A DNA stretch of 64,000 nucleotides from Prevotella sp. oral taxon 299 str. F0039 (GTDB taxonomy: Bacteria > Bacteroidota > Bacteroidia > Bacteroidales > Bacteroidaceae). The stretch covers positions 372,001 to 436,000 of the forward strand of contig NC_022111.1 of assembly GCF_000163055.2 (NCBI RefSeq). Reading direction: 5' to 3'. The first letter of the stretch is position 1. Every line of letters begins with the position of its first letter. The position numbers and the translations under genes are program-made. Shown here piece after piece: positions 3,002-47,225 of the stretch. The notes under the pieces are model-generated. The model did not search any database, had not been told where the DNA came from, and saw only the letters and a program-made list of their open reading frames with translations.

Positions 3002-3061
3002 TAAAAGTATTGATATTGTATCACAAAAGCAATGTTTTTATAAAGTAAAAGCACCCTTTTT
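3002..3061. repeat. 22-nt-period repeat array, copy 1 (3 units)
   Basis: Three 16-nt units at 3002-3017, 3024-3039 and 3046-3061 are separated by exactly 6 nt. Unit 1 is TAAAAGTATTGATATT; unit 2 is CAAAAGCAATGTTTTT; unit 3 is more degenerate. The array sits in the 660-base gap between plsC and the next gene. Apart from this array, the terminator at 2864, a doubtful 29-codon frame at 3234 and the promoter at 3446, the gap shows nothing recognisable. Four similar arrays occur elsewhere in the host part of the window. Confidence 0.8.
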
Positions 3062-3233
3062 GTTTTGTTATTTGTATCTTATTGATAATCAATGTGAAAC
3101 TGTATTGTTATAATAATGTATATAAATTCTATCTTATCTGATTTTATTTTAAATCTAATTATAGTTTTCAATTGTTTTTTCTATTCTGTATGTAATCCAA
3201 TAATGTTAATAATTCAATGTGTATGCCAATGAA

Positions 3234-3323
3234 ATGAACGAAAATAATGTTGATGCAGAATCGCTTTCAAAGCTGATTCTAGTGTTAGACGATTATATTC
3301 AGGAATTGAAAGAAACAGAATGA
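3234..3323 (+). CDS. Possible 29-residue peptide
   Basis: A short frame starting MNENNVDAESLSK and rich in acidic and leucine residues, predicted to form one amphipathic helix ending YIQELKETE. It could be a real micro-protein, the relic of a longer gene, or chance. There is no recognisable promoter directly before it, and it lies in an AT-rich gap where stop codons are frequent. It is listed because its composition looks protein-like, but the support is weak. Confidence 0.25.
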   Translation: MNENNVDAESLSKLILVLDDYIQELKETE

Positions 3324-3445
3324 TGTTTTAGATAATGAATAATTCTAATTGAAAGTGAGTGTGTTTATTCTCAATATATTTTCTTTTTTCTTGTTGCAAG
3401 CACGTAAAAAAGGACTTAAAGATGGTGGTTCTCAATAAAAAACGT

Positions 3446-3453
3446 TAACTTTG
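3446..3453 (+). promoter_or_regulatory. Bacteroidetes -7 promoter box for the GT2 gene
   Basis: TAACTTTG matches TAnnTTTG. A TTG start at 3451 lies inside this box, so it cannot be the start of translation. The likely start is ATG 3472, leaving a very short leader of about 10 bases. Confidence 0.65.
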
Positions 3454-3471
3454 CAATATATAGTTATGTGT

Positions 3472-4221
3472 ATGAATCAAAGCGACAGCATTGTAATCAT
3501 TCCCACTTATAATGAAAAGGAGAATGTAGAAAACATCATTCGAGCAGTATTTGCATTGGATAAGTGTTTTCATATATTGATAATTGACGATGGAAGTCCC
3601 GACGGAACCGCATCAATTGTTCAACGCTTGCAAGCCGAAGAGTTTGCAGATCGACTCTTTTTGATAGAACGTCAAGGTAAATTAGGATTAGGAACAGCCT
3701 ATATAACAGGCTTTAAATGGGCATTAGAAAACAACTACGACTATATTTTTGAAATGGATGCCGATTTCAGTCACGCTCCTTCAGACCTTCCACGATTATA
3801 CAATGCGTGCGCACAAGAAGGCTATGATGTAGCAATTGGCTCACGATATGTAAGTGGAGTGAACGTTGTGAACTGGCCAATAGGACGAGTGTTAATGAGC
3901 TATTTTGCATCGAAATATGTTCGTTTCATCACTGGTTTTAAGGTACACGATACCACTGCGGGTTTTAAATGCTATCGAAGAAAGGTATTAGAAACCATTC
4001 CTTTAGATCAAGTTCGCTTTAAAGGCTATGGATTTCAAATCGAAATGAAATATACAGCCTATAAAATTGGATTTAAAATAAAAGAAGTTCCTGTTGTATT
4101 TGTTAATCGACAAGAAGGTGTTAGCAAAATGAGCGGAGGCATATTTGGTGAAGCTTTCTTTGGAGTGATGCGCCTTCGATGGGACGGTTGGTTTAGAAAA
4201 TATCCCAAGATAAGCCATTAA
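3472..4221 (+). CDS. Polyprenol monophosphomannose synthase-like GT2
   Basis: Protein of 249 residues of the dolichol-phosphate mannosyltransferase (Dpm1-like) branch of glycosyltransferase family 2. The nucleotide-sugar fold starts with IVIIPTYNEKENVENI. The conserved block IIDDGSPDGTA, the DxD-type block EMDADFSHAP and IGSRYVSGVNVVNWPIGR are all typical of this branch. It would transfer mannose or a similar sugar from a nucleotide sugar to a polyprenyl phosphate at the inner membrane; the actual sugar is not readable. ATG 3472 was chosen over the upstream in-frame TTG 3451 and ATG 3466 because the promoter -7 box covers 3446-3453. The gene stands alone and ends at a clear hairpin terminator. 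A C-terminal membrane segment is lacking, as in the short bacterial Dpm1-type enzymes. Confidence 0.88.
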   Translation: MNQSDSIVIIPTYNEKENVENIIRAVFALDKCFHILIIDDGSPDGTASIVQRLQAEEFADRLFLIERQGKLGLGTAYITGFKWALENNYDYIFEMDADFSHAPSDLPRLYNACAQEGYDVAIGSRYVSGVNVVNWPIGRVLMSYFASKYVRFITGFKVHDTTAGFKCYRRKVLETIPLDQVRFKGYGFQIEMKYTAYKIGFKIKEVPVVFVNRQEGVSKMSGGIFGEAFFGVMRLRWDGWFRKYPKISH

Positions 4222-4233
4222 TAGCAATAATAA

Positions 4234-4272
4234 GCATGAATCGTGTTAGTCGATTCATGCCCTTTTCTTTTA
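4234..4272 (+). terminator. Terminator after the GT2 gene
   Basis: A perfect 10-bp stem (4234-4243 with 4251-4260, 7-nt loop) is followed by CCCTTTTCTTTT. Confidence 0.85.
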
Positions 4273-4302
4273 TAAACATTATTGTTTAAATAGTAGTATT
4301 TA

Positions 4303-7300
4303 ATGAAACTTAGCGACATAGCTACACTCTATGGGGCTTTGCCACAAGCTATTGCCCTACGTAAGACACTCAGTGATAACGCAACAAACACCATTTGGCT
4401 AAAAAATATCAAGGCATCTGCAGTTCCATTGCTATTTGCTTCGGTTGCGCCAAAAGCACAACAAGTATTTGTTTTCATTCTTGCTGATGCCGACGAAGCA
4501 GGCTATTTTTATAACGATTTAGCGCAAATAATGGGTAAAGAGCAAGTAATGTTCTTTCCATCTTCATACAGAAGGGCAGTGAAATATGGTCAACACGATC
4601 CCGCAAGTGAGATATTGCGAACCGAAGTACTTGCAACTCTATCGGCAAAAGAAAACTCTGATACCCTCAATAAGCAACCTTTGTTTATCGTTAGCTATCC
4701 CGAAGCCATTGCAGAGATGGTGGTTTCGAAGCAATTGATTAGCGATAAGGTGGTAAAAGTGGCTGTTTCGCAGGTAATAGACCTTGTAGAACTGCGCAAA
4801 AGACTATTAGAATTGGGCTTTAGCGAATGTGATTACGTTTATGAACCAGGTCAATTTGCCATCAGAGGTAGTCTTTTAGACATCTATTCGTTTTCTCATG
4901 AATATCCTTATCGTGTCGATTTCTTTGGCGATGAGGTCGATTCTATTCGCACATTCGATATCGAAAGTCAGCTATCTCGTGATAAAAAGGAAAGTATTGA
5001 GATATTGCCTGAATTGTCAACAGAGACTAATGAGCGAGTACCTTTATTGCGTTTCTTGCCCCAAGGGGCTATTGTGGCAATGAAAGACCAATCGTTTGTG
5101 CATCAAACAATAGATAATATCTATCGTGAAGGCTTTACATCTGCTGCTATAACAGAGCGTCTTTCGGGCGCAACAGAGCAAGAACAAGCTGAAATAGAGC
5201 GTGAATTGTGTCGTGAAAACATATTATGTAGCGCTTCGATGTTTGTTGATGACATTTCGAAAGTAAAGCGAATAGAATTTGGTTCCTCTCCTGTTTCTGT
5301 TCCAAATGCCACTATCGAGTTTAATATAACGCCTCAACCGCTCTTTCATAAGAACTTCGAATTGTTGAAAAAAACCTTCGAAGACTTTGTATTAAAAGGC
5401 TATAAACTCTATATCTTTGCTGATAGTGCCAAACAACAGCAGCGTTTATATGATATATTGAATAGCGAAGTAAATGAGAAAAACGAAGCAGTTAAGGTGT
5501 CGGAGATAAAGAAATTAGACTTTATCTCAGTGGATAAGACCATTCATGAGGGCTTTATTGATAATGATTTAGGGGTTTGTTTCTTTACAGATCATCAGAT
5601 ATTTGATCGTTTCCACAAGTATAATTTGAAGTCAGATGGCGCCCGTGCGGGTAAAATGGCATTGACTTTAAAGGAATTACAAGAGATGGAACCAGGCGAT
5701 TTCATTGTTCATGTAGACTTTGGTATAGGTAAATTCGGTGGATTAGTGCGTGTTCCAAGTGGCGAGAGCTATCAAGAAATGATTCGAATTATTTACAATA
5801 ACAATGATAAAGTAGATATTTCGATTCATTCTCTCTATAAAATCAGCAAGTATAAACGTGGAGATACAGAACAACCACCACGCCTTTCAACCTTAGGAAC
5901 AGGTGCTTGGGAACGTATTAAAGAGCGAACCAAGAAGCGAATAAAAGACATTGCTCGTGATTTGATTAAGCTTTATGCCAAGAGAAGACATGAGAAAGGC
6001 TTTGCTTTTAGTGTTGATTCGTTTCTACAACATGAGCTTGAAGCCAGCTTTTTATATGAAGATACACCCGATCAGCTAAAAGCTACGCAAGAAGTTAAAG
6101 CCGATATGGAGAGCGGAAGACCTATGGATAGGCTTGTTTGTGGTGATGTTGGATTTGGAAAGACCGAAGTTGCTATTCGAGCAGCATTCAAAGCGGCTTG
6201 CGACAACAAACAAGTTGCGGTGCTAGTGCCTACAACAGTGTTGGCATATCAGCACTTTCAAAGCTTTAGTTCACGCTTAAAAGGTTTGCCAGTAAAGGTA
6301 GATTATCTTTCAAGAGCACGCACTGCAAAACAAACAAAGCAAGTTCTTACCGACCTAGAGAAGGGTGATTTAAGCATACTTATAGGCACCCACAAACTCA
6401 TTAGCAAAGCAGTTAAGTGGCACGACCTAGGTCTTTTGATTATAGATGAGGAGCAAAAGTTTGGCGTTTCGGTGAAAGAAAAGCTTAGAACCATTAAAAC
6501 TAATGTCGATACGCTAACGATGTCTGCCACACCTATACCACGAACACTTCAGTTTTCGTTAATGGGAGCGAGAGACATGAGCATCATTCGCACTCCACCT
6601 CCTAACCGTTATCCTATTCATACCGAGCTTTCTGAGTTCTCATCAGATGTTATTCGAGATGCAATTAACTTCGAAATGAGTCGCAATGGACAAGTCTATT
6701 TTGTGAACGATCGTATAAGTAATTTGCAAGAGCTGTCGAATCTTATCTTAAAATATATCCCTGATTGTCGTCTTGCGATAGGACATGGACGCATGCAGCC
6801 TGAAGAATTAGAGCAAATCATTATGGGCTTTATGAATCATGATTATGATGTTCTGCTCTCAACAACTATCATTGAGAGTGGAATAGATATCTCTAATGCC
6901 AACACAATCATCATAAATGATGCGCATCGCTTTGGTTTATCCGACCTACATCAAATGCGTGGACGTGTAGGAAGAAGCAATAGAAAGGCGTTTTGCTATC
7001 TTCTTGCTCCCCCAAAGAGCCTACTAAAGCAAGATGCAAGGCGCAGATTAGAGGCTTTAGAGACCTTTTCTGAATTGGGAAGTGGCTTTAGTTTGTCGAT
7101 GCAAGACTTGGATATACGAGGTGCGGGCAATCTTCTTGGCTCTGAACAAAGCGGTTTTATTGAAGATTTAGGTTATGAAACCTACCAAAAGATATTGACT
7201 CAGGCTGTTACAGAACTAAAGAATGATGAGTTCTTCGATTTATATCAAGAGCAAATCGATGCAGGAGAAGCTATTAAAGCGAGTGACTTTGTGGAAGATT

Positions 7301-7746
7301 GTGCAGTGGATTCTGACCTAGAAATGTACTTTCCAGATAGCTATGTACCTGGAAGTAGTGAGCGAATGTTGCTTTATCGAGAATTAGATAATATCGAGTC
7401 GGACGATGCTTTACACGCTTATAAACAGCGATTGTTAGACCGTTTTGGCGAAATTCCATATCAGGCAGAAGAATTGATGAATGTTGTCGCTTTGCGAAGA
7501 CTCGGAAAGAACATGGGAATTGAAAAGATAATACTTCGTCAAGGTCGTATGAATTTGCAGTTAGTAGGCAACACTAATAGTGCATATTATAAGAGTGAAG
7601 CATTCGGAAGACTTATTAATTACGTGGGAAACAACCCTCGAAGCTGTAATATAAAGGAACATAAAGGACTTAGAATGGTTACAATTGCAAGTGTTCCAAC
7701 AGTGAATAAGGCGGTAGAGGTGTTGCAATTGATAGAAAATTGCTAA
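4303..7746 (+). CDS. mfd: Transcription-repair coupling factor
   Basis: Protein of 1147 residues, the normal length for Mfd, which removes stalled RNA polymerase from damaged DNA and recruits the UvrABC repair proteins. From the N-terminus: a UvrB-like damage-recognition module, then a CarD-like RNA polymerase interaction domain around residues 465-520 (EPGDFIVHVDFGIGKFGG), then a RecG-like translocase. The Walker A block GDVGFGKTEV lies at about residue 614 and the DEEQ box at about 715, followed by SATPIPRTLQ, HGRMQ and the GRVGRS block. The C-terminal TRCF domain is complete. It starts 30 bases after the previous terminator, and no consensus promoter box was found directly in front. It ends at a hairpin shared with the convergent trpB gene. 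Confidence 0.96.
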   Translation: MKLSDIATLYGALPQAIALRKTLSDNATNTIWLKNIKASAVPLLFASVAPKAQQVFVFILADADEAGYFYNDLAQIMGKEQVMFFPSSYRRAVKYGQHDPASEILRTEVLATLSAKENSDTLNKQPLFIVSYPEAIAEMVVSKQLISDKVVKVAVSQVIDLVELRKRLLELGFSECDYVYEPGQFAIRGSLLDIYSFSHEYPYRVDFFGDEVDSIRTFDIESQLSRDKKESIEILPELSTETNERVPLLRFLPQGAIVAMKDQSFVHQTIDNIYREGFTSAAITERLSGATEQEQAEIERELCRENILCSASMFVDDISKVKRIEFGSSPVSVPNATIEFNITPQPLFHKNFELLKKTFEDFVLKGYKLYIFADSAKQQQRLYDILNSEVNEKNEAVKVSEIKKLDFISVDKTIHEGFIDNDLGVCFFTDHQIFDRFHKYNLKSDGARAGKMALTLKELQEMEPGDFIVHVDFGIGKFGGLVRVPSGESYQEMIRIIYNNNDKVDISIHSLYKISKYKRGDTEQPPRLSTLGTGAWERIKERTKKRIKDIARDLIKLYAKRRHEKGFAFSVDSFLQHELEASFLYEDTPDQLKATQEVKADMESGRPMDRLVCGDVGFGKTEVAIRAAFKAACDNKQVAVLVPTTVLAYQHFQSFSSRLKGLPVKVDYLSRARTAKQTKQVLTDLEKGDLSILIGTHKLISKAVKWHDLGLLIIDEEQKFGVSVKEKLRTIKTNVDTLTMSATPIPRTLQFSLMGARDMSIIRTPPPNRYPIHTELSEFSSDVIRDAINFEMSRNGQVYFVNDRISNLQELSNLILKYIPDCRLAIGHGRMQPEELEQIIMGFMNHDYDVLLSTTIIESGIDISNANTIIINDAHRFGLSDLHQMRGRVGRSNRKAFCYLLAPPKSLLKQDARRRLEALETFSELGSGFSLSMQDLDIRGAGNLLGSEQSGFIEDLGYETYQKILTQAVTELKNDEFFDLYQEQIDAGEAIKASDFVEDCAVDSDLEMYFPDSYVPGSSERMLLYRELDNIESDDALHAYKQRLLDRFGEIPYQAEELMNVVALRRLGKNMGIEKIILRQGRMNLQLVGNTNSAYYKSEAFGRLINYVGNNPRSCNIKEHKGLRMVTIASVPTVNKAVEVLQLIENC

Positions 7747-7789
7747 GCCTTTCTGTCGTTTGCCCCTATATCTTAAGGTGTAAAAGAAT

Positions 7790-7840
7790 AATAGTGTTAG
7801 ACAATTGGATATGCCAATGCATCTAACACTATTGCTTTTT
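7790..7840. terminator. Bidirectional terminator between mfd and trpB
   Basis: A perfect 12-bp stem (7790-7801 with 7822-7833) is followed by GCTTTTT on the plus strand. It lies between two convergent genes. Confidence 0.8.
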
Positions 7841-7857
7841 ATGAGGTAAAAGGTGAA

Positions 7858-9228
7858 CTATAAAAATTCAACTTTAGGTACATCTTTCAACGAATTACTA
7901 ATTTCTTGGTCTGAGATGCTATAGTTTTGCAAGTCACCATTTAGATAACTTTCGTATGCAGTCATATCAATTAAACCGTGACCAGATAGGTTAAACAATA
8001 GAACTTTAGCCTCTCCGCTTTCCTTACACTTAATTGCTTCACGAATAGTAGCGGCAATTGCGTGTCCACTTTCAGGCGCAGGAATGATTCCTTCGGTACG
8101 TGCAAAGAGCATACTAGCATCGAAAGACTCTAACTGTGGAATGTCTTCGCCTCGCATTAGTCCATCTTTTATGAGCTGAGAAACAAGTGTTCCTGCTCCA
8201 TGATAGCGCAAACCGCCAGCATGAATGTTTGCAGGTTTGAAGTCATGGCCTAGAGTATACATTGGAAGAAGAGGCGTATAGCCAGCTTCATCACCAAAAT
8301 CGTATTCAAATTTACCACGAGTTAGTTTGGGACAGCTTTCTGGTTCTACCGCAATAAACTCAGTTTTCTTTCCAGAAAGAAGGGTATGGCGCATGAAAGG
8401 GAATGCAAGTCCACCAAAGTTACTACCTCCTCCGAAGCAAGCAATAATCTTATCAGGATATTCTCCCGTCATTTCCATCTGCTTTTCAGCCTCTAATCCG
8501 ATAATTGTTTGATGCAGAGTGACATGGTTAAGCACCGAACCTAAGGTGTATTTGCAATTAGGGGTGGTTGTAGCAAGCTCGATAGCTTCTGATATAGCTG
8601 TACCTAATGTGCCAGGATGGCGTGGATCTCGGGTGATAATATCTTTGCCTGCACGAGTAGACATTGATGGAGAACCAGTTACTTCAGCCCCGAAAGTACG
8701 CATAATACTACTGCGATAGGGCTTTTGTTGCATACTAACTTTCACCTGATAAACTGCTGCTGACAAGCCAAAAAGGCTTGCTGCATAGCTTAAAGCAGCA
8801 CCCCATTGACCTGCTCCCGTTTCTGTTGTGACGTTAGTTGTGCCCTCTTGCTTGCAATAATAGCACTGAGGGATAGCCGAATTCACCTTATGAGAACCCA
8901 AAGGGTTTACACTTTCATTCTTAAAGTATATATGTGCAGGTGTATCTAGGGCTTTTTCTAATGCATAAGCACGAACTAGGGGGGTAGATCTATAAAATTT
9001 ATATTTATCGAGGACTTCTTCTGGAATGTCAATCCAGCTATTTGTGAAATCAAGTTCTTGTTTACTACACTCTAAAGAGAATATGTGTGCCAAATCTTCA
9101 ACCCCCATTGGCTCTTTAGTTTGTGGGTTAAGAAGTGGAAGAGGCTTCGTTTTTAAATCGGCTTGAATGTTATACCATTGTGTAGGAAGCTCTTTTTCTG
9201 ATAGATAGAATCTTTTTTGTTTGCTCAT
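7858..9228 (-). CDS. trpB: TrpB2-type tryptophan synthase beta chain
   Basis: Protein of 456 residues. The long form with the N-terminal segment preceding LPLLNPQT and the whole layout fit the TrpB2 subfamily of pyridoxal-phosphate enzymes rather than the roughly 395-residue TrpB1. The cofactor lysine is K114 in GSHKVNSA, and the phosphate-binding loop is FGGGSNFGG at about 265-273. The ETGAGQWG block contains the catalytic Glu region. TrpB1 makes tryptophan from indole and serine in a complex with TrpA. TrpB2 usually works without TrpA and is thought to salvage indole. No trpA or other trp gene is present nearby, which agrees with a stand-alone role. A promoter -7 box lies about 130 bases upstream. 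Confidence 0.9.
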   Translation of the reverse strand: MSKQKRFYLSEKELPTQWYNIQADLKTKPLPLLNPQTKEPMGVEDLAHIFSLECSKQELDFTNSWIDIPEEVLDKYKFYRSTPLVRAYALEKALDTPAHIYFKNESVNPLGSHKVNSAIPQCYYCKQEGTTNVTTETGAGQWGAALSYAASLFGLSAAVYQVKVSMQQKPYRSSIMRTFGAEVTGSPSMSTRAGKDIITRDPRHPGTLGTAISEAIELATTTPNCKYTLGSVLNHVTLHQTIIGLEAEKQMEMTGEYPDKIIACFGGGSNFGGLAFPFMRHTLLSGKKTEFIAVEPESCPKLTRGKFEYDFGDEAGYTPLLPMYTLGHDFKPANIHAGGLRYHGAGTLVSQLIKDGLMRGEDIPQLESFDASMLFARTEGIIPAPESGHAIAATIREAIKCKESGEAKVLLFNLSGHGLIDMTAYESYLNGDLQNYSISDQEISNSLKDVPKVEFL

Positions 9229-9356
9229 ACTACTTCTTTTTAATTGTGAATACTTACAAATAGGACCTTAAAAGCAATAATTTGAATGTTTTTGTTATCC
9301 TGTTATACTGCTGTTTTTGTTTGAAAAACGTTGTAATTGCTATTGTCCTATTATTG

Positions 9357-9364
9357 CAAAGTTA
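9357..9364 (-). promoter_or_regulatory. -7 promoter box for trpB
   Basis: On the minus strand the sequence reads TAACTTTG, matching TAnnTTTG. It lies in the divergent region between trpB and the symporter gene. No good -33 box was seen. Confidence 0.5.
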
Positions 9365-9440
9365 GTGAAAAAACTAGTTTTTTGAATAATTAAATGCATA
9401 AATATTCGATATTTTGTATTTATAAACAAATAGAATGTCT

Positions 9441-9448
9441 TATCTTTG
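9441..9448 (+). promoter_or_regulatory. -7 promoter box for the symporter gene
   Basis: TATCTTTG matches TAnnTTTG. The in-frame TTG at 9446 falls inside it, so translation most likely starts at ATG 9458 with a near-absent leader. Confidence 0.6.
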
Positions 9449-9457
9449 TATGCAAGT

Positions 9458-11107: not shown

Positions 11108-11171
11108 ACTCTTAAATTTACAACTCATCTTCTTGCAAAGGTAATGAAGGTGCAAGCGAAAGACATAAAAA

Positions 11172-28716: not shown

Positions 28717-28748
28717 GCATCATAATGAAAGATTAAAACTATAGAACA

Positions 28749-29957
28749 ATGAAAAATATTATTAGATATTATGCAATATTGTTGTGTGGATTGTTAGCTT
28801 TTGCATCATGTAGCGATGATCGCGACTCTAATCCTAAGCTTCAATCTCCTACAACATTTACATTAAATGCGCCTATTTATGGTTCTTCAGCTATAAATTT
28901 AGCAACATCAACAGCTCTAAACTTTGCATGGTCACAACCGGAATATGGTTTTCCTGCAATTGTAGACTATCAGATAGAACTTTCATTGAATGACTCTTGG
29001 AGAGTTTCTACTAAAGAGGCGTGGGCAGATAAAACAGGAAAAACAGTTGCAGATTACGCTACACTTGACGATACTTACAATATTTGTAATGCGCAAGTTG
29101 GCGTTGCAAAGATTGCAAGAAGTCTTGAAATGATAGCAAAATGGGAAGATGGAAAAGTTCCACCTACCCAGAAAGTTTATGCACGTTGTAAAGCTACTTA
29201 TGCAGGACAAACTATTTATTCTAATTCTGTAGAATTCATGGTTGTTCCTTACTATGTAGAGGTAAAAGAACATGAACCTGTTTTATGGTACCTTACTGGT
29301 AGTTGTTTTGGTAACGGAGCATGGGGAAATGGCGAAGATCAATTAGGTGTTTCTATGGTTCCTATGTATCCTATTGCAGGACAAGAATATGATATAAACA
29401 CAGGAACAGGTGTTATTGGCTACATTGGATACTTCCCTGAAAAAGCAATATTTAAGATTATTGAAAAATTAGGTAACTGGGATTTTGGTATTTGTGGTAA
29501 TGGTGGGCCTTTAACAACAACCTATCGTGCTGGAGGAAATGACCCAGGAAACATACAGATAGATGAAGCTGGATATTATGAGATTAGACTAAACACTAAA
29601 ACTCATGAGTGTAAAATTGAAAAAACTACCCCAGCTTCTTCTATAGAGTTTACAAAAATGTCTCTACCTATTAAGTCTGGAGCAGACAATAATTGGGACG
29701 CTACACAAAACGAGATGAGGAAATTCTCGACAACTGCTAATACTAAAAACCATGATTGGGTATTAGATGTGAATGTAACTGCAGGTCAAGAACTTCAGTT
29801 TGTAGCTAATGGTGCATTAACTGATACATGGAGTGCAAGCAATTTCCCATTCGGAACAGCAGTAAAAGGCAATAAAGTAGCCATTTCTGTTAATGAATCA
29901 GGAAAATACAAAGTGTTCTTTAACGACATCACTGGACAATATTATTTCTTAAAATAA
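28749..29957 (+). CDS. susE: SusE-like outer membrane lipoprotein
   Basis: Protein of 402 residues. Lipobox LAFASC with Cys at about 20, followed by SusE-type N-terminal immunoglobulin-like domain (residues about 30-165: LNFAWSQPEYGFPAIVDYQIEL). Two further beta-sandwich modules of the SusE/SusF starch-binding kind follow (ALWYLTG-type WYLTGSCFGNGAWGN, then MSLPIKSGADNNWDATQNEM). Such proteins sit on the cell surface and hold starch or maltodextrin for the SusCD complex. It starts 32 bases after susD. A strong hairpin follows, separating it from the next gene. Confidence 0.85.
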   Translation: MKNIIRYYAILLCGLLAFASCSDDRDSNPKLQSPTTFTLNAPIYGSSAINLATSTALNFAWSQPEYGFPAIVDYQIELSLNDSWRVSTKEAWADKTGKTVADYATLDDTYNICNAQVGVAKIARSLEMIAKWEDGKVPPTQKVYARCKATYAGQTIYSNSVEFMVVPYYVEVKEHEPVLWYLTGSCFGNGAWGNGEDQLGVSMVPMYPIAGQEYDINTGTGVIGYIGYFPEKAIFKIIEKLGNWDFGICGNGGPLTTTYRAGGNDPGNIQIDEAGYYEIRLNTKTHECKIEKTTPASSIEFTKMSLPIKSGADNNWDATQNEMRKFSTTANTKNHDWVLDVNVTAGQELQFVANGALTDTWSASNFPFGTAVKGNKVAISVNESGKYKVFFNDITGQYYFLK

Positions 29958-29968
29958 TTGTATAAAAC

Positions 29969-30003
29969 GTCGGAGGAAGCGTTTTTAGATGTCTTCCTCC
30001 GAC
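29969..30003 (+). promoter_or_regulatory. Intercistronic hairpin in the sus operon
   Basis: A perfect 11-bp GC-containing stem (29969-29979 with 29993-30003, loop 13) fills most of the gap between susE and the next gene. There is no U-tract after it, so it is more likely an mRNA-stabilising or processing element than a simple terminator. Confidence 0.6.
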
Positions 30004-30019
30004 CTAATATAATAGAAAC

Positions 30020-31075
30020 ATGAAAAAAGTATATATGATAATGGGAGTTGCAACAGCCATGTTTGCTGCTTGTTCTGAAGATTATACGAATTGGACTGCA
30101 CCACAATCCAATCCACAAACTCCTGAAAAAACGATTTCATTTACAGCAACACCTTTGCCTGCTGTCGACTATAATACCATTAAGGGTGACTCTCTTCAGT
30201 TGTTTACATCTTCTGTACTTACCGAAGCAACACTTGTAAGTCAAAAGTTCTCTACTGTTGTTTTCAATGAAAATAAAACAAGACAAAAAGTTCTTAAAAC
30301 AACAAAAGAGGGTAAAATAGCTGCTGCCGACTTAGAGAATGCGGTTAAAAATCTTTATGGAGAAGGAGATACCGAACGTGCTGTCTCTATTACTATCAAC
30401 GACACCATAAATGTTGAAACAGGTGAAAGCTTCTTAAAAACATTTGATTTTACTTGCAAAGTTAGCTTAACTAAGAAAAACTTCCCTGAATTCTTCTATG
30501 TTGTTAATCCAGAAAAGCCAACCGAAAAGGCTCAAGTTTTACGTGGTGAAAAATTCGATGGTACATTTATTGGTTATGTTTATTTAGATAAACAATTCAA
30601 GTTACGTCCTAATTCAGATAACGCAGAGAACGATTTAGAATGTACATCAGAAGGCAATGTAGAAGAAAAAGGACAAGGAGAAGCATGTATAGTGAGCACA
30701 CCAGCGTTCTATAAGATAGAAGTTAAATTAGAGCAAGGCGTTAAGAAAGGTACTTATACATTAACAAAAATAGATAATGTCTCTATAATTGGAGACGCTG
30801 TTGGTGGATGGGATAAAGATTTTATTGATTTAACCTACAATCCTACAACTGGTATTTGGGAAGCTGATAATGTAAATGTTATAAAAACAGGACCTTTAAA
30901 GTTCCGTGCTAATCATGGCTGGGCTTTGTCTTGGGGTGGTTACGAGAGTGAAACTGCATTCAAAGAACTGACAGCTAATGATGGTAAGAACTTAAATGTA
31001 GAGAAAGGAACTTATAAAGTAGAACTTACTCTTACTTTTGATGGTAAATCAAAGGTTGTTTTCACTAAAAAGTAA
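30020..31075 (+). CDS. SusE/SusF-like surface lipoprotein
   Basis: Protein of 351 residues. Lipobox FAAC with Cys at about 20 followed by SEDYTNWTAPQ, a common start of SusE/F-type proteins. The middle has Ig-like features, and the last 100 residues (VSIIGDAVGGWDKDFIDLTYNPTTG, LKFRANHGWALSWGG) match the starch-binding C-terminal module of SusE/SusF proteins with exposed Trp residues. Its gene is the last of the operon, after the hairpin at 29969 and before a terminator at 31129. It probably adds another glycan-binding site at the cell surface. Confidence 0.82.
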   Translation: MKKVYMIMGVATAMFAACSEDYTNWTAPQSNPQTPEKTISFTATPLPAVDYNTIKGDSLQLFTSSVLTEATLVSQKFSTVVFNENKTRQKVLKTTKEGKIAAADLENAVKNLYGEGDTERAVSITINDTINVETGESFLKTFDFTCKVSLTKKNFPEFFYVVNPEKPTEKAQVLRGEKFDGTFIGYVYLDKQFKLRPNSDNAENDLECTSEGNVEEKGQGEACIVSTPAFYKIEVKLEQGVKKGTYTLTKIDNVSIIGDAVGGWDKDFIDLTYNPTTGIWEADNVNVIKTGPLKFRANHGWALSWGGYESETAFKELTANDGKNLNVEKGTYKVELTLTFDGKSKVVFTKK

Positions 31076-31128
31076 TCATGCTTTGTAAGCTGATTGCTTA
31101 TTGAATATAATAAGCAACAAGAATATTT

Positions 31129-31185
31129 AAGAGAACAAAAGATAAGTTTATCTAAAATAAAACCTTTTGTTCTCTTATTTTTATT
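31129..31185 (+). terminator. Terminator of the sus operon
   Basis: A perfect 12-bp stem (31129-31140 with 31165-31176) followed by ATTTTTATT. Confidence 0.82.
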
Positions 31186-31288
31186 CTGTATTGATAACAT
31201 ATAGGCTTAGATCTTTTTTACGCACTACTATAGAAAAATAGATTGTTTTTTACAATATTATTTAATTTCTTGCGTTTCCTATAATAAA

Positions 31289-31296
31289 TAAATTTG
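31289..31296 (+). promoter_or_regulatory. -7 box before the sugar transferase gene
   Basis: TAAATTTG matches TAnnTTTG but ends only 4 bases before ATG 31301. If used, translation probably starts at ATG 31370, or the transcript is leaderless. Confidence 0.45.
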
Positions 31297-31300
31297 CATA

Positions 31301-31963
31301 ATGACAACAAAGATAATCGTAGATACCAAGCAAGAAATTAAAATAGAAAATAAATACATTTATGATGGAATGAATGGAATAGAGAGAAGTATAAAACGTT
31401 TTTTCGATTTTATAGCAGCAACTATATCCCTTATTCTTTTCTCTCCTCTCTTTATTATTTGCTACATATTGATAAAGAAAGAAGATGGTGGTAGTGTTAT
31501 TTTTAAGCAAGAACGCATCGGAAGATTTGGTCGGCCGTTCTGTATTTACAAGTTTAGAAGCATGAAAGAAGATGCAGAAAAGGATGGACCTGCATTATTT
31601 CAACACGAAAAAGATCATCGTTTAACCAAGATAGGTAAGTTTCTTAGAACGCATCACCTCGATGAATTACCCCAACTTTGGAATGTGTTTATAGGAGATA
31701 TGTCGTTTGTTGGACCACGACCAGAGCGTAAATTCTATATAGATCAAATCATTCAACACGACGAGCGATATACCTTTTTATACCAAATTCGCCCAGGTGT
31801 TACCTCCTATGCCACCTTATATAATGGTTATACCGATACTATGGAGAAAATGTTACGCCGTCTTGAGCTTGATCTTTACTATCTTAGAAAACGTTCTTGG
31901 TGGTTTGATATCAAAATACTAATCAACACTTTCCTCAATATTGCAATTGGAAAGAAATTCTAA
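31301..31963 (+). CDS. Polyprenyl-phosphate sugar-1-phosphate transferase
   Basis: Protein of up to 220 residues of the bacterial sugar transferase (PglC/WcaJ catalytic core) family. A single N-terminal membrane segment (about 36-57: DFIAATISLILFSPLF) is followed by the core: FKQERIGRFGRPFCIYKFRSM, DELPQLWNVFIGDMSFVGPRPE, and RPGVTSY. These enzymes attach the first sugar phosphate to undecaprenyl phosphate and so start a surface polysaccharide or glycan. The capsule-type operon at 39.9-49.5 kb has no such enzyme, so this gene may supply it, although it is 8 kb away. The start is uncertain: ATG 31301 follows a -7 box by 4 bases, and ATG 31370 gives a more typical short N-terminus. Confidence 0.88.
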   Translation: MTTKIIVDTKQEIKIENKYIYDGMNGIERSIKRFFDFIAATISLILFSPLFIICYILIKKEDGGSVIFKQERIGRFGRPFCIYKFRSMKEDAEKDGPALFQHEKDHRLTKIGKFLRTHHLDELPQLWNVFIGDMSFVGPRPERKFYIDQIIQHDERYTFLYQIRPGVTSYATLYNGYTDTMEKMLRRLELDLYYLRKRSWWFDIKILINTFLNIAIGKKF

Positions 31964-32002
31964 AGTAAAAAAATGTCATGCGTTCATAACATAAGGCGAT
32001 TA

Positions 32003-32084
32003 TAAAAGCATTGTTTTCGCCATGTTAAAACATTGATATTACACTCTAAAAGCATTGCTATTGAACCTCAATAGCAATGCTTTT
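32003..32084. repeat. 22-nt-period repeat array, copy 4 (4 units)
   Basis: Units at 32003-32018, 32025-32040, 32047-32062 and 32069-32084 with spacers GCCATG, ACACTC and GAACCT. Units 3 and 4 are reverse complements and form a 16-bp hairpin (32048-32084) followed by ATTTTTTATG, so this end of the array may also terminate the sugar transferase transcript. Confidence 0.88.
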
Positions 32085-32248
32085 ATTTTTTATGAGCTAT
32101 CCTTTTACAAAGAAAGCTAGTAAACTCCTGATCTCGAATGGGTTGCATGTTCACTAGCTTTATATTTTATTGCCAAATTAAAAGCTCTTCACAATAGTGG
32201 TAATAGCTTATTATCCTATAAAAATTATAGACTATTTCTTAATTAAAT

Positions 32249-32956
32249 TTATATCGTTTCATCTGCTACTTCAGTTGTTTCTTCATCTGTTTCAGATGCT
32301 TTTATTTCTTTAATTTGAGGTGTTTCTGTTGTGGTTGCTACTATTTCTTCAGTCTCAACTGCTTGTTGTGCAGCTATTACAGCTTTGTTATAAGCCTTCT
32401 TTATCGCATAAATTTTAATTGAATTGATAGTTTCAATCACTCCAAAAAGTAAGATTGCCCAACCCAAAATAAATAAGAAAGAGGCCCCCAAAAGAGTTGG
32501 TTTAACCAAAGCAACTAAGCCAATGAGCATTGTTATACAAGGAGTTATCCAAAAGAAAGGACCTATTTTTGCCAATTTTGATACTTGCGCTAAGTTGATA
32601 TATTGATTAATTGAGCCTATTATAAGTAGAAAAGCAAGCAAATAGCTTAACCATTGCTGAAAAGTTGCAGGCATAAGAGCCAACACTACACCAAGAATTG
32701 CACACGCAATGCCCACCAATGGAAGGGTAGGAGTAGTACCTGCAATCTGAACTCCATTATTATCTAACACTTGAACATCTGCAAAATTCTTTCTACTGCC
32801 ATAATAAACGGCACAGGAAATAACACCTGATAGAAAGAATAATACCCCGATAACAATCACTAACCACTTCTGTGCTTCATCTCTATACATAATAGTTAAA
32901 GCACCAACTATCAGTGCACACAATGCACGAAAAAAAGAACTCTGTAATACTTTCAT
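32249..32956 (-). CDS. DUF308/HdeD-like membrane protein
   Basis: Protein of 235 residues from ATG 32956. Six hydrophobic segments occur in the first 175 residues, followed by an acidic C-terminal tail rich in Glu and Thr (EIVATTTETPQIKEIKASE). The arrangement fits the DUF308 (HdeD-like) family of inner membrane proteins of unclear function, some linked to acid stress. The reading frame is open for another 45 codons upstream, but the -7 box at 32972-32979 lies within that extension, so the shorter start is preferred. The tail is longer and more charged than usual for the family. Confidence 0.75.
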   Translation of the reverse strand: MKVLQSSFFRALCALIVGALTIMYRDEAQKWLVIVIGVLFFLSGVISCAVYYGSRKNFADVQVLDNNGVQIAGTTPTLPLVGIACAILGVVLALMPATFQQWLSYLLAFLLIIGSINQYINLAQVSKLAKIGPFFWITPCITMLIGLVALVKPTLLGASFLFILGWAILLFGVIETINSIKIYAIKKAYNKAVIAAQQAVETEEIVATTTETPQIKEIKASETDEETTEVADETI

Positions 32957-32971
32957 AATAATTGATTTGTG

Positions 32972-32979
32972 CAAAAATA
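32972..32979 (-). promoter_or_regulatory. -7 promoter box for the DUF308 gene
   Basis: The minus strand reads TATTTTTG. Its position supports ATG 32956 as the start. Confidence 0.5.
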
Positions 32980-33038
32980 CAAATTGTTTTGCAAAAGCTA
33001 TTCTTTTGTAATAAAAAAAGCTATAAAAAACAGTATGT

Positions 33039-33072
33039 TTTGTATACATAAAAAATATTATATATAGTTTTG
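33039..33072 (+). promoter_or_regulatory. Promoter of the toxin-antitoxin pair
   Basis: TTTG at 33039-33042, a 22-base gap and TAGTTTTG at 33065-33072. The gap is one base over the usual 19-21. It lies 40 bases before the antitoxin ATG. Confidence 0.6.
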
Positions 33073-33112
33073 CAAAAACTAATAGTATCAATATTTTACA
33101 TCAATAAGCATT

Positions 33113-33411
33113 ATGTCAACTACAATTAATCTAAAAAGAAAGAATATAGATTTGCCTGCAGACACCCTAAAAAAATGTCTTTTATGGCTGTTTTGCAAGG
33201 AAAAAGTCTTAAAGCATATATAGAGCAGATTCTTATAGCAAAGGCAAGTAGTATTAATATCAAAGTAAATGAGAATCCATTCCCAAGCAATGATGAGTGG
33301 TTTAACAACCCCAATAATATTGAAGAGATACAAGAAAGTATTGCACAGCAACTTTCTGGAGAAACAAAAGCTTATAGTATAGAAAATATTAAAAAAGCTT
33401 TAGATGTATGA
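33113..33411 (+). pseudogene. Antitoxin of a TA pair, -1 frameshift
   Basis: From ATG 33113 the frame reads MSTTINLKRKNIDLPADTLKK and then meets a run of seven A (33169-33175). In frame it would end at 33223 after a nonsense tail. Shifting by -1 at the A run joins it to the frame of 33175-33411 (MSFMAVLQGKSLKAYIEQIL and so on), giving a normal antitoxin of about 100 residues, as found in Bacteroidetes before YoeB-type toxins. The run forms the heptamer A-AAA-AAA in the correct phase, a known slippery site, so either a lost A or ribosomal or polymerase slippage could explain it. The restored frame ends with ATGA overlapping the toxin start. Confidence 0.75.
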
Positions 33412-33673
33412 TCTACAAATTATTACTAACCAAGAAAGCTGAAGAACACCTTAAAGAATGGAAAAATCGGGGCAAAAGAAAACCCTACTTAAAATTATTT
33501 CATTGTTTGAAGAACTTCAACTTCATCCTACTTTGGGTACAGGACAAGTGGAACAGCTTAAAGGAAACTTATCAGGTTATTGGAGTAGACGCATAGATAA
33601 GGGTTCAAGAATGGTGTATTTTATTGAAGAAGACAAAGTGATTGTCACAATAATATCATTGAAAGGACACTAA
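33408..33673 (+). pseudogene. YoeB/Txe-type toxin, frameshifted
   Basis: The frame opens as MIYKLLLTKKAEEHLKEWK at 33408, then breaks at a run of five A (33462-33466). The following part continues in the other frame (SGQKKTLLKIISLFEEL, WSRRIDKGSRMVYFIEE, VIVTIISLKGH). Adding one A restores an 88-residue protein of the Txe/YoeB mRNA-cutting toxin family, with the family-typical Arg residues in SRRIDKGSRMVY and a final His. The usual aromatic residue after that His is missing. Unlike the antitoxin break, this site is not a classical slippery heptamer. It is most simply a dead toxin gene or a sequencing error in a homopolymer. Confidence 0.75.
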
Positions 33674-33816
33674 TAATCATTAAAACTATTTTATTCTTGT
33701 TTTACTCTTAAAATAAAAAAGGGCAGAAATAGTCTATTTTTGAAATAAAATCACGATATTTGCACAACTTTTTAGGGATAAGATTATTTACAATAAAACA
33801 AAGATAAACATTATTT

Positions 33817-34860
33817 ATGAAGTATTTTTTCTTTGCGGTTATAGGGGTTCTTTTAACCTTTCTACCCGCTAGTGCACAAAAAAAATATTCTGTTTACGGA
33901 GTAGGTTTCTACAATCAAGAAAACTTATTCGACACATGTCATGACGAAGGAAAGCGTGATTACGATTTTCTTCCAACTGGTTCGTATAAATGGAATGCCA
34001 TGAAATACAACCATAAGCTCAACAATATGTCACGAGCTTTGGCAGATATGGGTACAGATGTGCTCCCCAATATAGGCTGCGCAATCATTGGTTTGGCTGA
34101 AGTTGAGAACTCAAAAGCCTTAGACGACCTTGTTGCACAACCCGCTTTAAGTGCTCGTAACTATCAATATGTGCATATAGAAGGTCCTGACCGCCGTGGA
34201 ATTGATTGTGCGTTATTATACAATCCCTCTTTATTTAGTGTAAAGAATACCCGTCTTGTACCCTATGTTCAAAAGCTAAAGAAAGATAGTGCATTCTATA
34301 CTCGAGGCTTTTTAACTGTTAGTGGAAGCCTTGCAGATGAACATATAGCCGTTATTGTATGTCACTTACCTAGTCGTTTTAGTGAATCTTTTTACAGAGA
34401 GCTAGGTGCAGAGCAAGTAAAAGCAATTAAAGACTCTCTTTTAAACGATGATCCTAACTGCAAAGTGTTTGTTATGGGCGACATGAACGACGACCCTATC
34501 GACAAGAGTATGGCAGGTATTTTAAGAGGAAAAGGCAACATTAAAGATGTAAACCAAGGCGATATGTATAATCCATGGTATAATATTTTAGTTAAAGAAG
34601 GCGTTGGAACGCTTCTATATCAAGGCTCTTGGAATCTTTTCGACCAAATACTTGTAACACCAAACCTATTGAATAAAGATGATAAGAAAGACTTTTCATC
34701 TTTGAAATTCTGGAAAAATCAAATCTTTAAACGTGATTATTTGTTCCAAACAGAAGGCAAATATAAAGGTTCTCCTAAGCGAACTACAGCAGGAGGAGTG
34801 TGGTTAGATGGTTATAGTGACCACCTTCCTGTAGTTGTTTATTTAGTAAAAGAACAATAG
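33817..34860 (+). CDS. Secreted endonuclease/exonuclease/phosphatase protein
   Basis: Protein of 347 residues with a signal peptide ending ASAQ at about residue 21 and no lipobox, so periplasmic or secreted. The EEP fold is shown by QENLFDT near the start, GLAEVEN (metal-binding Glu), the central VCHLPSRF, GDMNDDP and the C-terminal YSDHLPVVV. Members of this superfamily cut DNA or hydrolyse phosphodiesters of inositol phosphates or lipids; the secreted Bacteroidetes type is usually annotated only as nuclease/phosphatase. It stands alone, ends at a hairpin terminator, and starts 144 bases after the broken toxin gene. Confidence 0.88.
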   Translation: MKYFFFAVIGVLLTFLPASAQKKYSVYGVGFYNQENLFDTCHDEGKRDYDFLPTGSYKWNAMKYNHKLNNMSRALADMGTDVLPNIGCAIIGLAEVENSKALDDLVAQPALSARNYQYVHIEGPDRRGIDCALLYNPSLFSVKNTRLVPYVQKLKKDSAFYTRGFLTVSGSLADEHIAVIVCHLPSRFSESFYRELGAEQVKAIKDSLLNDDPNCKVFVMGDMNDDPIDKSMAGILRGKGNIKDVNQGDMYNPWYNILVKEGVGTLLYQGSWNLFDQILVTPNLLNKDDKKDFSSLKFWKNQIFKRDYLFQTEGKYKGSPKRTTAGGVWLDGYSDHLPVVVYLVKEQ

Positions 34861-34869
34861 TTAGATATC

Positions 34870-34912
34870 AACTCTCCCGTTTCCTATATGTAAGAGATGG
34901 GAGAGTTCTTTA
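34870..34912 (+). terminator. Terminator after the EEP gene
   Basis: A perfect 9-bp stem (34870-34878 with 34899-34907) followed by CTTTATT. It covers an in-frame ATG at 34897 of the next gene, which argues against that start. Confidence 0.7.
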
Positions 34913-34944
34913 TTATCACCACCCAACTCTTTGTTTCTTTCTTT

Positions 34945-35607
34945 ATGACAGCACAAAAAAAAGAAAAGAATATCAATTCTAACAAACCCCAAAGAAACAG
35001 TAGTTCGACCCCAATGACAGGCGAAATAGAACGTCATCCCTTTGAACCTTTCTTGCCAAAGAACGCTAAATTGTTGATGTTAGGTAGTTTTCCACCTGCC
35101 GAACACAGATGGACTATGCCCTTTTATTATCCTAATTACATCAATGATATGTGGCGAATTGTGGGCTTTATCTTCTTTAACGACAAAGAACACTTTGTTT
35201 TTCACGAGCAAAAAAGCTTTTATGTAGACAAGCTTATATCGTTTCTAACCGACAAAGGAATAGCATTATTCGACACTGCAACAGCGATAATAAGAACCAA
35301 AGGCACAGCTGCCGACAAAGATTTAGAGGTGGTTGAAACAACAGATGTTGCAGCATTACTCGATAAGATACCACAATGCACCGCCATTGTAACCACTGGT
35401 GAGAAGGCAACAGAAGTGCTGATGCAACAGTTTGGCATTAAAGAAAAGCCCAAAGTGGGTTGCTTTGTGACTTTTACTTTTAATAACAAAGAGATGAAAC
35501 TCTATCGAATGCCAAGTAGTTCGAGGGCATATCCCATGAAGATAGAACGCAAAGCAGAGTTCTACAAACAGATGTTTAACGATGTTTTTGAATGCGACAA
35601 TCAATAA
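34945..35607 (+). CDS. Uracil-DNA glycosylase family protein
   Basis: Protein of about 220 residues of the uracil-DNA glycosylase-like superfamily. The block LLMLGSFPPAEHRW resembles motif A (GxxPx) and KLYRMPSSSRAYPM resembles the C-terminal motif with PSxS. This branch is common in Bacteroidetes, and the activity of its members is not well established; removal of damaged or mismatched bases is the family expectation. Three starts are possible: 34897 lies in the preceding terminator stem, 34945 gives a 23-residue Lys/Asn/Ser-rich extension, and 35014 begins exactly where the conserved part starts. The middle one is used here, with low certainty about the start. Confidence 0.75.
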   Translation: MTAQKKEKNINSNKPQRNSSSTPMTGEIERHPFEPFLPKNAKLLMLGSFPPAEHRWTMPFYYPNYINDMWRIVGFIFFNDKEHFVFHEQKSFYVDKLISFLTDKGIALFDTATAIIRTKGTAADKDLEVVETTDVAALLDKIPQCTAIVTTGEKATEVLMQQFGIKEKPKVGCFVTFTFNNKEMKLYRMPSSSRAYPMKIERKAEFYKQMFNDVFECDNQ

Positions 35608-35652
35608 AGAACATGATATAAAAATAGAATATAATCATAAAATACGAACGAT

Positions 35653-36273
35653 ATGACATCAGACATCACCATTATAGGCATTGCAGGCGGAACAGGTTCA
35701 GGCAAATCAACCGTTGTTCGCAAGATAGTTGAAGCGCTTCCACCGCACCATGTAGCCGTAGTTCCATTAGATTCTTATTACAACGACACAACAGGAATGA
35801 CCGAAGAAGAGCGTCGTGCGATTAATTTCGACCACCCTGATGCATTCGATTGGAAACTACTTATAAAGCAAGTGAATGATCTTCGCAATGGACTAACAAT
35901 CGAACAGCCCACTTATTCGTATATTCTTTGTAACCGATTGAGCGAAACTATCACCGTAGAACCAAAGCCTGTGATTATCATAGAGGGTATTATGACCTTG
36001 CTAAACAAGAAACTTCGTGAGATGATGGACCTCAAGATATTCGTTGATTGCGACTCAGATGAGCGGTTAATACGTAACATTCAGCGTGATACCATAGATC
36101 GTGGGCGCACTGTTACAATGGTTATGGATCGCTATATCGAAGTTCTTAAACCCATGCACGAGCAGTTTATCGAGCCAACTAAGCGTTATGCCGACGTCAT
36201 TATACCACAAGGTGGTGAGAACGAGAAAGGTATTGGCATTGTATGTGCATATATTAAGCATCTTGTTCCATAA
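35653..36273 (+). CDS. udk: Uridine kinase
   Basis: Protein of 206 residues, the normal size. It phosphorylates uridine or cytidine in pyrimidine salvage. The P-loop GGTGSGKST is at residues 12-20, and the substrate-binding segments PLDSYYND and NFDHPDAFDW follow with normal spacing. IIIEGIMTL and the DSDERLIRNIQRD block complete the family pattern. The gene follows the UDG-family gene by 45 bases and may share its transcript. It is followed by a repeat array and a strong bidirectional terminator. Confidence 0.94.
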   Translation: MTSDITIIGIAGGTGSGKSTVVRKIVEALPPHHVAVVPLDSYYNDTTGMTEEERRAINFDHPDAFDWKLLIKQVNDLRNGLTIEQPTYSYILCNRLSETITVEPKPVIIIEGIMTLLNKKLREMMDLKIFVDCDSDERLIRNIQRDTIDRGRTVTMVMDRYIEVLKPMHEQFIEPTKRYADVIIPQGGENEKGIGIVCAYIKHLVP

Positions 36274-36329
36274 CTTTCTTGTAGTTAATAAGAAAGAACA
36301 TAAAATAGCTCTGCAATTTGGTTAATTGA

Positions 36330-36411
36330 TAAAAGCATTGCTTTTCACTTACAAAAGCAATGTTATTATAGTGTAAATGCATCACTATTATATGGTAAAA
36401 GCAGTGCTTTT
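36330..36411. repeat. 22-nt-period repeat array, copy 5 (4 units)
   Basis: Units at 36330-36345, 36352-36367, 36374-36389 and 36396-36411 with spacers CACTTA, ATAGTG and ATATGG. Unit 1, TAAAAGCATTGCTTTT, is close to the consensus of all arrays; unit 2 is in the opposite orientation. Confidence 0.88.
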
Positions 36412-47223: not shown

Positions 47224-47225
47224 TT

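Follow-up and report, generated by a model that had tools for sequence, protein, structure and literature searches.

REP/BIME elements are intergenic palindromes, often located at gene ends and present in hundreds of copies, and in lambda OR or Lrp operators stacked dimers occupy 15-17-bp palindromes positioned about two turns apart. Among Prevotella, a 188-bp P. intermedia repeat named PINSR was described in 2015 in 177 and 184 copies, presented as amplified and left without a function, and its PCR was negative for P. nanceiensis, as far as the available part of the report goes (PMC4755523). BrickBuilt of Porphyromonas gingivalis is, in the accessible portion of its description, a 23-nt direct repeat of expanding and contracting number inside a MITE (PMC4596501). 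On the chromosomal scale, the available text of several papers describes a bacterial A-tract "structural code", an approximately 11-bp period of A/T runs that uses synonymous sites, is weaker in phage DNA and is strong across most of some chromosomes (PMC4132750, PMC3431218, PMC3940949, PMC7537859). This rhythm has long been interpreted as a code for packing the DNA, one whose addresses were not known. Here, in a 64,000-nt stretch (the window) of Prevotella sp. oral taxon 299 str. F0039, a sister species of Hoylesella nanceiensis (~91% identity), we describe discrete sites that are in register with an A/T rhythm phased over more than 1 kb and conserved between the sister species.

The window holds five clear intergenic arrays, at the places where a sequence-only reading had put them. 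Each is a quartet of 17-bp near-palindromes, approximately YAAAAGCAWTGCTTTTR, with 5-nt spacers, spanning 83 bp overall (Table 1), and the five score 61.7-73.2. The 22-nt period of that reading stands, although a 17-bp unit and a 5-nt spacer describe it better than the proposed 16 and 6 nt; the 19 units of the reading, in arrays of three or four, become 20 units, all in quartets, as the first array begins one unit earlier (2980). All five arrays that it listed are present, but two weak quartets had been overlooked, of which the run at 49978 may be a chance occurrence. It placed every array in a gap behind a gene, which is true of the five in the window but not genome-wide: among 84 quartets, tandem gaps account for 41, convergent gaps for 25 and divergent gaps for 10, seven lie at a stretch edge and one overlaps an ORF end. 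The 247 gaps of at least 130 nt hold 76 placed quartets, most large gaps having none. The clear quartets also avoid the phage part, as had been stated, and the weak run sits just before the phage-like block; seven of ten ORFs at 50-62 kb have PHROGs matches, including a CI-like repressor, an exonuclease, a ssDNA-binding protein and a DNA polymerase. At the gathering score, Rfam gave no match in the window, whereas six further loci yielded two tRNAs and a BTncRNA_FopS.

Table 1. Quartets and lattice regions in the window (positions in nt; lattice strength is the mean per 4 kb, random about 1)
Feature	Positions	Context
Quartet 1	2980..3062	Tandem gap after an acyltransferase gene; weak flanking lattice
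Quartet 2	11026..11108	Convergent gap between genes for an SSF-family transporter and a pyridine nucleotide-disulphide oxidoreductase
Weak quartet	15128..15210	Tandem gap; score 42.6
Quartet 3	20927..21009	Tandem gap; units 1-2 and 3-4 are reverse complements
Quartet 4	32003..32085	Convergent gap; units 3-4 are reverse complements; weak fifth unit at 32091
Quartet 5	36330..36412	Convergent gap
Weak quartet-like run	49978..50060	Score 32.1, lowest of seven; near flanks without lattice
Lattice-bearing stretch	1..48000	Strength 1.2-7.3
Phage-like part	52000..64000	Lattice absent (0.63, 1.38, 0.78)

The arrays are genuine and their 22-nt phase is non-random. In an 864-kb sample (40 evenly spaced 20-kb stretches and the window; the genome has 2.48 Mb in two contigs), an array finder returned 90 arrays, with four units in 66, three in 10, five in seven, two in four, one in two and seven in one, and on two simulated controls it returned 0 and 1 arrays. 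Spacing is locked: pairs of PWM matches above 10 bits in these 864 kb numbered 202, 130, 65 and 2 at 22, 44, 66 and 88 nt, none at 20, 21, 23 or 24 nt, and 1, 1, 2 and 1 at 43, 45, 65 and 67 nt. Phased arrays in shuffled sequence would have spoken against a selected phase, and simulated sequence yielded none; one sequence of matched dinucleotide make-up had 0 pairs at 22, 44 and 66 nt. Nor was random spacing found elsewhere: in samples of five further genomes a strict detector reported arrays at a period of 22 alone, with no more than two at each of the remaining periods between 18 and 26; a looser threshold also passes periods 21 and 23 (e.g. 90/94/88 in genome G084). The whole genome contains 527 15-mer matches with at most two mismatches, versus 15 for the reversed pattern. 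The consensus is identical across unit positions 1-4, with a conserved CANTG core, and A/T tracts recur every 11 bp within the quartet, as in phased A-tract DNA. Exceptions to the number four include 11 units in RUG178 and six in G039. The arrays are not CRISPRs, as the sequence-only reading had noted, because the spacers of 5-6 nt are too short and the units drift.

Compared with REP/BIME, the quartets are A/T-rich, have an exact 22-nt period and four units, and abound in genomes that mostly lack the Y1 transposase; from operator arrays they differ by hundreds of chromosomal sites and by species-specific words. They share with BrickBuilt, as partly described, the intergenic position and a tandem repeat of near-equal length, but have 22 nt, palindromic units and a fixed number of four, and the prevalence of four units among the arrays departs from the variable copy number of BrickBuilt or minisatellites. 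The P. intermedia repeat PINSR very probably shares the quartet core, judging from the G084 genome, in which a repeat of 189 bp end to end, matched to the published 188 bp by length and not by letters, holds a 22-nt phased four-unit core. Extrapolation gives 281 copies of it, above the published numbers. As far as the PINSR report is available, both elements are intergenic, occur in hundreds of copies and are missing from most mobile regions that are specific to a strain. Conserved arms of about 50 bp flank the core of the G084 repeat on both sides, whereas our quartets lack conserved arms and share the core design only, and the words of that repeat (GCGGCTS, CCTACGC, SAGCCGC, CAATAGG) differ from ours. 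The design would be common to a wider group, PINSR included, in which each species has its own words. None of the array words turned up in the papers searched.

The sister species carries 16 of 19 quartets at identical register. In these 16 orthologous quartets, changes affected 36 of 512 A/T-tract positions (7%), 48 of 448 inner positions and 84 of 240 spacer positions (35%); these rates leave aside a separate alignment of 12 pairs, of which three look paralogous. The constraint on the units is strongest at positions 1, 2, 6, 9, 14 and 15, chosen post hoc, with nine changes in 384. In other species within the GTDB genus Prevotella the frame A4-N7-T4-N7 persists with a different 7-bp word. The spacing lock, the shared register with changed spacers and the frame kept with other words support the proposal that the 22-nt phase is selected as sequences drift.

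Genome-wide, AA/TT dinucleotides form a lattice with a period of 10.98 bp, coherent over more than 1 kb; in our genome, with arrays masked, the period is 10.96-10.98 bp up to 4 kb. No such lattice was present in E. coli, in a pool of other taxa or in the prophage part, and within the lattice-bearing stretch of the window the strength dips to 1.84 at 16-20 kb and to 1.22 at 24-28 kb. The flanks agree in phase with the quartets (n=84), with R of.63,.80,.67,.70,.42 and.34 from 40-140 up to 1500-2200 bp, compared with a mean R of.10 for shifted anchors, and coding bases alone gave.72,.65,.69,.40 and.28 from 140 to 2200 bp. After synonymous shuffling the lattice is 6- to 9-fold lower, and it is carried mainly via synonymous codon choice. 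Shuffling leaves a residual peak and a flank phase of R.20-.38, therefore the amino-acid sequence also contributes. In-phase AA/TT are better conserved in the sister species (2234 of 2423 kept) than out-of-phase ones (957 of 1109). Lattice strength per stretch correlates with quartet number (r=.78, 40 stretches) and declines from 3.95 at 0.3-0.8 kb to 2.63 more than 6 kb away from quartets, against 1.34 in array-free stretches. The period of about 11 bp, its synonymous carriage and its weakness in phages are already known; new are the phase over more than 1 kb and the register with discrete quartets, the published analyses, in their available parts, being concerned with spacings of roughly 30-100 bp and with signals that extend for some 100 bp.

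That quartets keep step with a kilobase A/T rhythm suggests DNA with a written packing register and anchor points. We give about an even chance to quartets acting at the DNA level, as sites that anchor a nucleoid structure with helical register. A putative dimeric, sequence-specific protein most likely sits on each 17-bp palindrome, and four dimers would stack on one helix face at two-turn (22 bp) spacing; a protein on one DNA face, already raised by the sequence-only reading, is the favoured interpretation of the 22-nt phase. The quartet would set or read the helical register of the neighbouring chromosome, where AA/TT, genes included, recur every 10.98 bp in quartet phase for 1-2 kb on each side. 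Such phasing would let an A-tract-preferring nucleoid structure extend along one face from the anchor, and the structure may spread or wrap and act in nucleoid packing. Several observations count against the anchor model. G039 and G376 have many quartets and little kilobase lattice, their flanks being in phase near the array only, and the lattice around the quartet at 2980 is weak; the flank-phase sample of G012 comprised only eight quartets. Furthermore, all dinucleotides show a slight in-phase conservation edge (.89 vs.85-.86), AA/TT 5-5.5 bp off the peak are kept at.90, and the model does not predict the tendency of units 1-2 and 3-4 towards reverse complementarity. With anchors known, the question whether nucleoid structure underlies the rhythm becomes directly testable by footprinting. 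More tentatively, it is possible though rather doubtful that some Prevotella chromosomes carry a written, chromatin-like register in which DNA lies on a regular surface at 10.98 bp per turn, kept in phase over kilobases and through genes via synonymous codons, with quartets as sequence-coded anchors that set the phase and whose words evolve together with a protein specific to the species, and that foreign DNA stands out by having no register.

It is unlikely that the quartets are old, decayed copies of PINSR-like mobile or amplified elements from a single spread, with the lattice a separate matter. The published amplification of PINSR, the core lying within the conserved repeat of G084 (84 copies in 800 kb) and the existence of weak quartets fit such a history, but random insertion does not lead one to expect flanks that agree in phase, and the register shared with the sister species, the constrained positions and the single consensus for all four units speak against it too. 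Our quartets show no shared flank motif and no clear element ends. The Y1 transposase (PF01797) is missing from eight of nine array-rich genomes tested (0 in G000, G084, G376, G012, G039, G017, G227 and G692; 1 in G006), which leaves a REP/RAYT system unsupported; it was found in six of eight other Prevotella genomes.

Less probable still is an RNA-level role, in which transcribed units 1-2 and 3-4 form two stem-loops for RNA stabilisation, processing or termination. The hairpins suggested by the sequence-only reading have some support, as these units are near-perfect reverse complements more often than expected: pairs complementary at 15 or more of 17 positions numbered eight for units 1-2 (null 2.0, p=.0004) and eight for units 3-4 (null 2.2, p=.0012), compared with 0, 1, 0 and 1 for the other unit pairs, and G039 partly repeats the bias (units 3-4 p=.01; units 1-2 p=.17), the G084 arrays being left out of this comparison for want of orientation. 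Double compensatory changes occurred four and two times (null 1.7 and 0.5; p=.07 each), quartets lie closer to 3' ends, and a terminator-like site falls inside the array at 20 of the 89 gene ends. Mean complementarity, however, hardly exceeds chance (z 1.3 and 2.0), sense-strand G-T and A-C mismatches are equally frequent (51 vs 43, p=.47), the C/G position of the G084 repeat is matched in 29 cases and mismatched in 30, and the ends of the spacers show no covariation of the kind expected for closing pairs. Moreover, RNA loops do not require an exact length, and 10 quartets lie in divergent gaps. An intrinsic terminator substituting for others was not supported, because terminator-like sites are equally frequent with and without arrays (by our own heuristic, a separate site upstream of the array at 37 of 89 array-bearing gene ends vs 72 of 167 array-free ones).

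Quartets could share their period and phase with the 11-bp A/T lattice, which weakens away from them, simply as its intergenic peaks freed from coding constraint, but the number fixed at four, the conserved CANTG core with species-specific words, the many large gaps without a quartet and the quartets of G039 and G376 despite little lattice make this very improbable.

As for the putative reader of the words, Lrp/AsnC proteins were not supported, since 21 of 21 aligned group-II proteins have the recognition helix VSGAAIHQR regardless of the word; PF01037 is present in 31 of 31 genomes, array-bearing and array-free alike. Across eleven species pairs, arrays recurred at orthologous gene 3' ends with a Mantel-Haenszel odds ratio of 4.1 (p=4e-5), which drops to 1.7 (p=.14) once both genes are required to have 110 bp or more of gap downstream, and we do not claim deep positional conservation. 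The word search (AAAAGC..GCTTTT type) misses other words; its reversed control gave 0-7 matches except in G041 (61) and G355 (84), and the reversed control of the later cross-species word comparison also catches true arrays and is not a clean null. Outside the genus, four genomes (G099, G146, G474 and G578) had more than 20 matches, the sites listed for the latter three being A/T homopolymer stretches. Array-like matches, possibly due to contamination, were also present in Kiritimatiellae MAG contigs, and a Lachnospiraceae MAG contained one pattern match.

The sequence-only reading had described five intergenic arrays in the window, built of 16-nt near-palindromes with 6-nt spacers at a fixed 22-nt period. 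All five were confirmed in the sequence, and so was the period; the first array begins at 2980 and not at 3002, and the units are better described as near-palindromes of 17 bp, their consensus close to YAAWAGCAWTGCTWTTR, separated by 5 nt (loosely CANTG), a whole quartet measuring 83 bp. To the window we added 40 evenly spaced 20-kb stretches, giving an 864-kb sample of the strain's own genome (2,480,269 bp, two contigs). In this sample PWM matches above 10 bits lay 22, 44, 66 and 88 nt apart 202, 130, 65 and 2 times, and never 20, 21, 23 or 24 nt apart. The fixed phase also withstood a control with simulated sequence, which yielded no PWM pairs at 22, 44 or 66 nt. Exactly four units were present in 66 of 90 arrays; in later tests each of the 84 arrays that had three or more units was represented by its best four-unit register, and the remaining 6 were dropped.

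Positions of the quartets (starts) and of accompanying features, in the window unless stated otherwise
Feature	Position	Remark
Terminator-like inverted repeat	2860-2910	strong, by eye; between gene end 2808 and quartet 1
Quartet 1	2980	
Quartet	11026	
Quartet	15128	weak
396-bp repeat	16249-16988	two tandem copies, 89% matches
Quartet	20927	
Quartet	32003	
Quartet	36330	
Quartet	49978	weak
Rfam BTncRNA_FopS match	L270:13057-13123	genome G084, near PINSR-like repeat
Lrp/AsnC gene, single in own genome	L429 (G000 C2:323500-324700)	frame broken near 5' end (sequence error or real); weak array on 3' side

T-tracts keep phase far beyond the quartet limits. Once the arrays are masked, the own genome shows AA/TT autocorrelation at a period of 10.96-10.98 bp, its amplitude falling from.0424 at 100-400 bp to.0312 at 400-1000 bp and then to.0166 (1-2 kb) and.0043 (2-4 kb); coding DNA alone is similar, and 728 of 1646 overlapping 1-kb windows peak at 10.9-11.1. 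Synonymous-codon shuffling within genes lowered this lattice from.0450/.0336/.0179 to.0073/.0053/.0020, a small peak persisting. The peak is present in H. nanceiensis (115 kb), genomes G084 and G017 and other Prevotellaceae loci, H. nanceiensis and these loci being no random sample since they were fetched by match to the array pattern; it is weaker in G039 and G012 and weakest in G376. No such peak was seen in E. coli (200 kb, best-to-median ratio at most 2.6) or in other taxa pooled (613 kb, at most 2.2). In the window's phage-like part, as in the array-free stretches L033, L059 and L060, the lattice is at random level; in array-free L061 it is slightly above. Published passages already report A/T periodicity in synonymous positions, weak in phages; in the open-licence PMC literature, as far as its passages go, we found no description of kilobase coherence.

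Quartet phase agrees with the AA/TT phase of the flanks (own genome, n=84): register R was.63,.80 and.67 at 40-140, 140-340 and 340-600 bp, and.70,.42,.34 and.19 at 600-1000, 1000-1500, 1500-2200 and 2200-3200 bp. Shifted anchors gave a mean of.10 and maxima of.26-.33, against which the value for 2200-3200 bp is not significant. Coding bases alone gave.72,.65,.69,.40 and.28 in the bands between 140 and 2200 bp, and.38,.31,.37,.28 and.20 after synonymous shuffling. Among the other genomes in the test, which also took in G012 (n=8), agreement reaches 1.5 kb in G084 (n=87), about 1 kb in G017 (n=13) and 340 bp in G376 (n=12), and is confined to 40-140 bp in G039 (n=28). In strong-lattice windows covering 33,100 coding bases aligned to H. 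nanceiensis, AA/TT was kept at 2234/2423 sites within 2 bp of a lattice peak versus 957/1109 at least 4 bp off (p=8e-8), in-phase conservation being somewhat better for all dinucleotides, not AA/TT alone.

Hoylesella nanceiensis DSM 19126 is the closest named relative found (82-95% identity, median 91%, over 15 common blocks above 400 bp). For 28 of 56 quartets gathered there, the counterpart region was obtained from the own genome, and 19 of these hold a quartet: 16 within 2 nt of the expected position and 3 displaced by 21-22 nt. None was found in the other 9, all of which were matched by a single flank, so that a lost quartet cannot be told from a non-orthologous region there. In the 16 in-register quartets (flank identity 79-99%), changes affected 36/512 A/T-tract positions, 48/448 of the seven inner positions and 84/240 spacer positions; positions 1, 2, 6, 9, 14 and 15, picked after the fact, changed in 9/384.

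Exact spacing, four units, unit constraint, tandem, convergent and divergent placement and kilobase register together lead us to favour the quartet as a putative nucleoprotein anchor acting on DNA. Hairpin pairing draws on near-perfect reverse complements beyond chance between units 1-2 (8/84, null 2.0) and 3-4 (8/84, null 2.2), partly repeated in G039. Mean complementarity is hardly raised, however, and no sign of pairing selection appears in G-T/A-C symmetry, the PINSR C/G position or spacer ends; template switching at near-palindromes could also produce the bias. The arrays had been placed in gaps after genes, which suits 41 tandem and 25 convergent gaps but not 10 divergent ones genome-wide (stretch edges 7, ORF-end overlap 1; genes called by a simple codon-score finder), the available gaps of at least 130 nt being 146, 55 and 46. 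Arrays do not substitute for terminators, because by our own heuristic a separate terminator-like site precedes the array at 37/89 array-bearing gene ends versus 72/167 ends without one. As candidate proteins, a PF01797 protein is absent from most array-rich genomes, and Lrp is not supported as reader of the words (7-bp inner sequences), its recognition helix being identical in 21 proteins regardless of word.

In G084 the quartet core is flanked by conserved arms, the whole forming a 189-bp repeat that occurs 84 times in 800 kb (281 copies by extrapolation). From its length, place and abundance, rather than published consensus letters, this repeat appears to be PINSR, in the published account a 188-bp intergenic repeat of P. 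intermedia whose function is not known, with 177 and 184 copies in two strains and PCR-negative in P. nanceiensis (Naito et al. 2015, PMC4755523). In nearly all of its copies in G084, slots 2 and 3 are shared between a CCTACGC-type and a SAGCCGC-type word, whichever comes first, and slot 1 repeats one of the two in reverse complement (sAS 44/84, sSA 20/84, aSA 10/84, aAS 0/84).

Of the 398 genomes in the GTDB genus, 91 contain matches to a two-unit pattern with the words AAAAGCNNNGCTTTT and up to 3 mismatches. The period also held beyond the own genome: a word-free detector found 54, 28, 47, 12, 8 and 13 period-22 arrays in samples of G000 (own), G039, G084, G376, G012 and G017; no other period between 18 and 26 yielded more than 2. 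At a looser threshold periods 21 and 23 also passed. A word-free six-tract pattern gave at least 20 matches in 36 of 249 genus genomes (counted from the listing), with words including GGTGATC, CGGNCCG and GGGCACC. A survey of the order, covering 295 genomes with the own one among them, showed no clear quartet outside the genus, G099 being a doubtful case. In three genomes (G205, G191, G183) the GGGCACC words are accompanied by another family phased at 22 bp, of type AAAAGAAATATTTTT, whose spacers are CTTCATG-like. Three-unit arrays with the word GCASTGC at 22 nt occur in Kiritimatiellae MAG contigs (L103, L108, L133), reflecting either contamination or genuine spread. Unit number can expand, since the uncultured Prevotellaceae MAG RUG178 (L079) holds an 11-unit array whose first units are near-identical.
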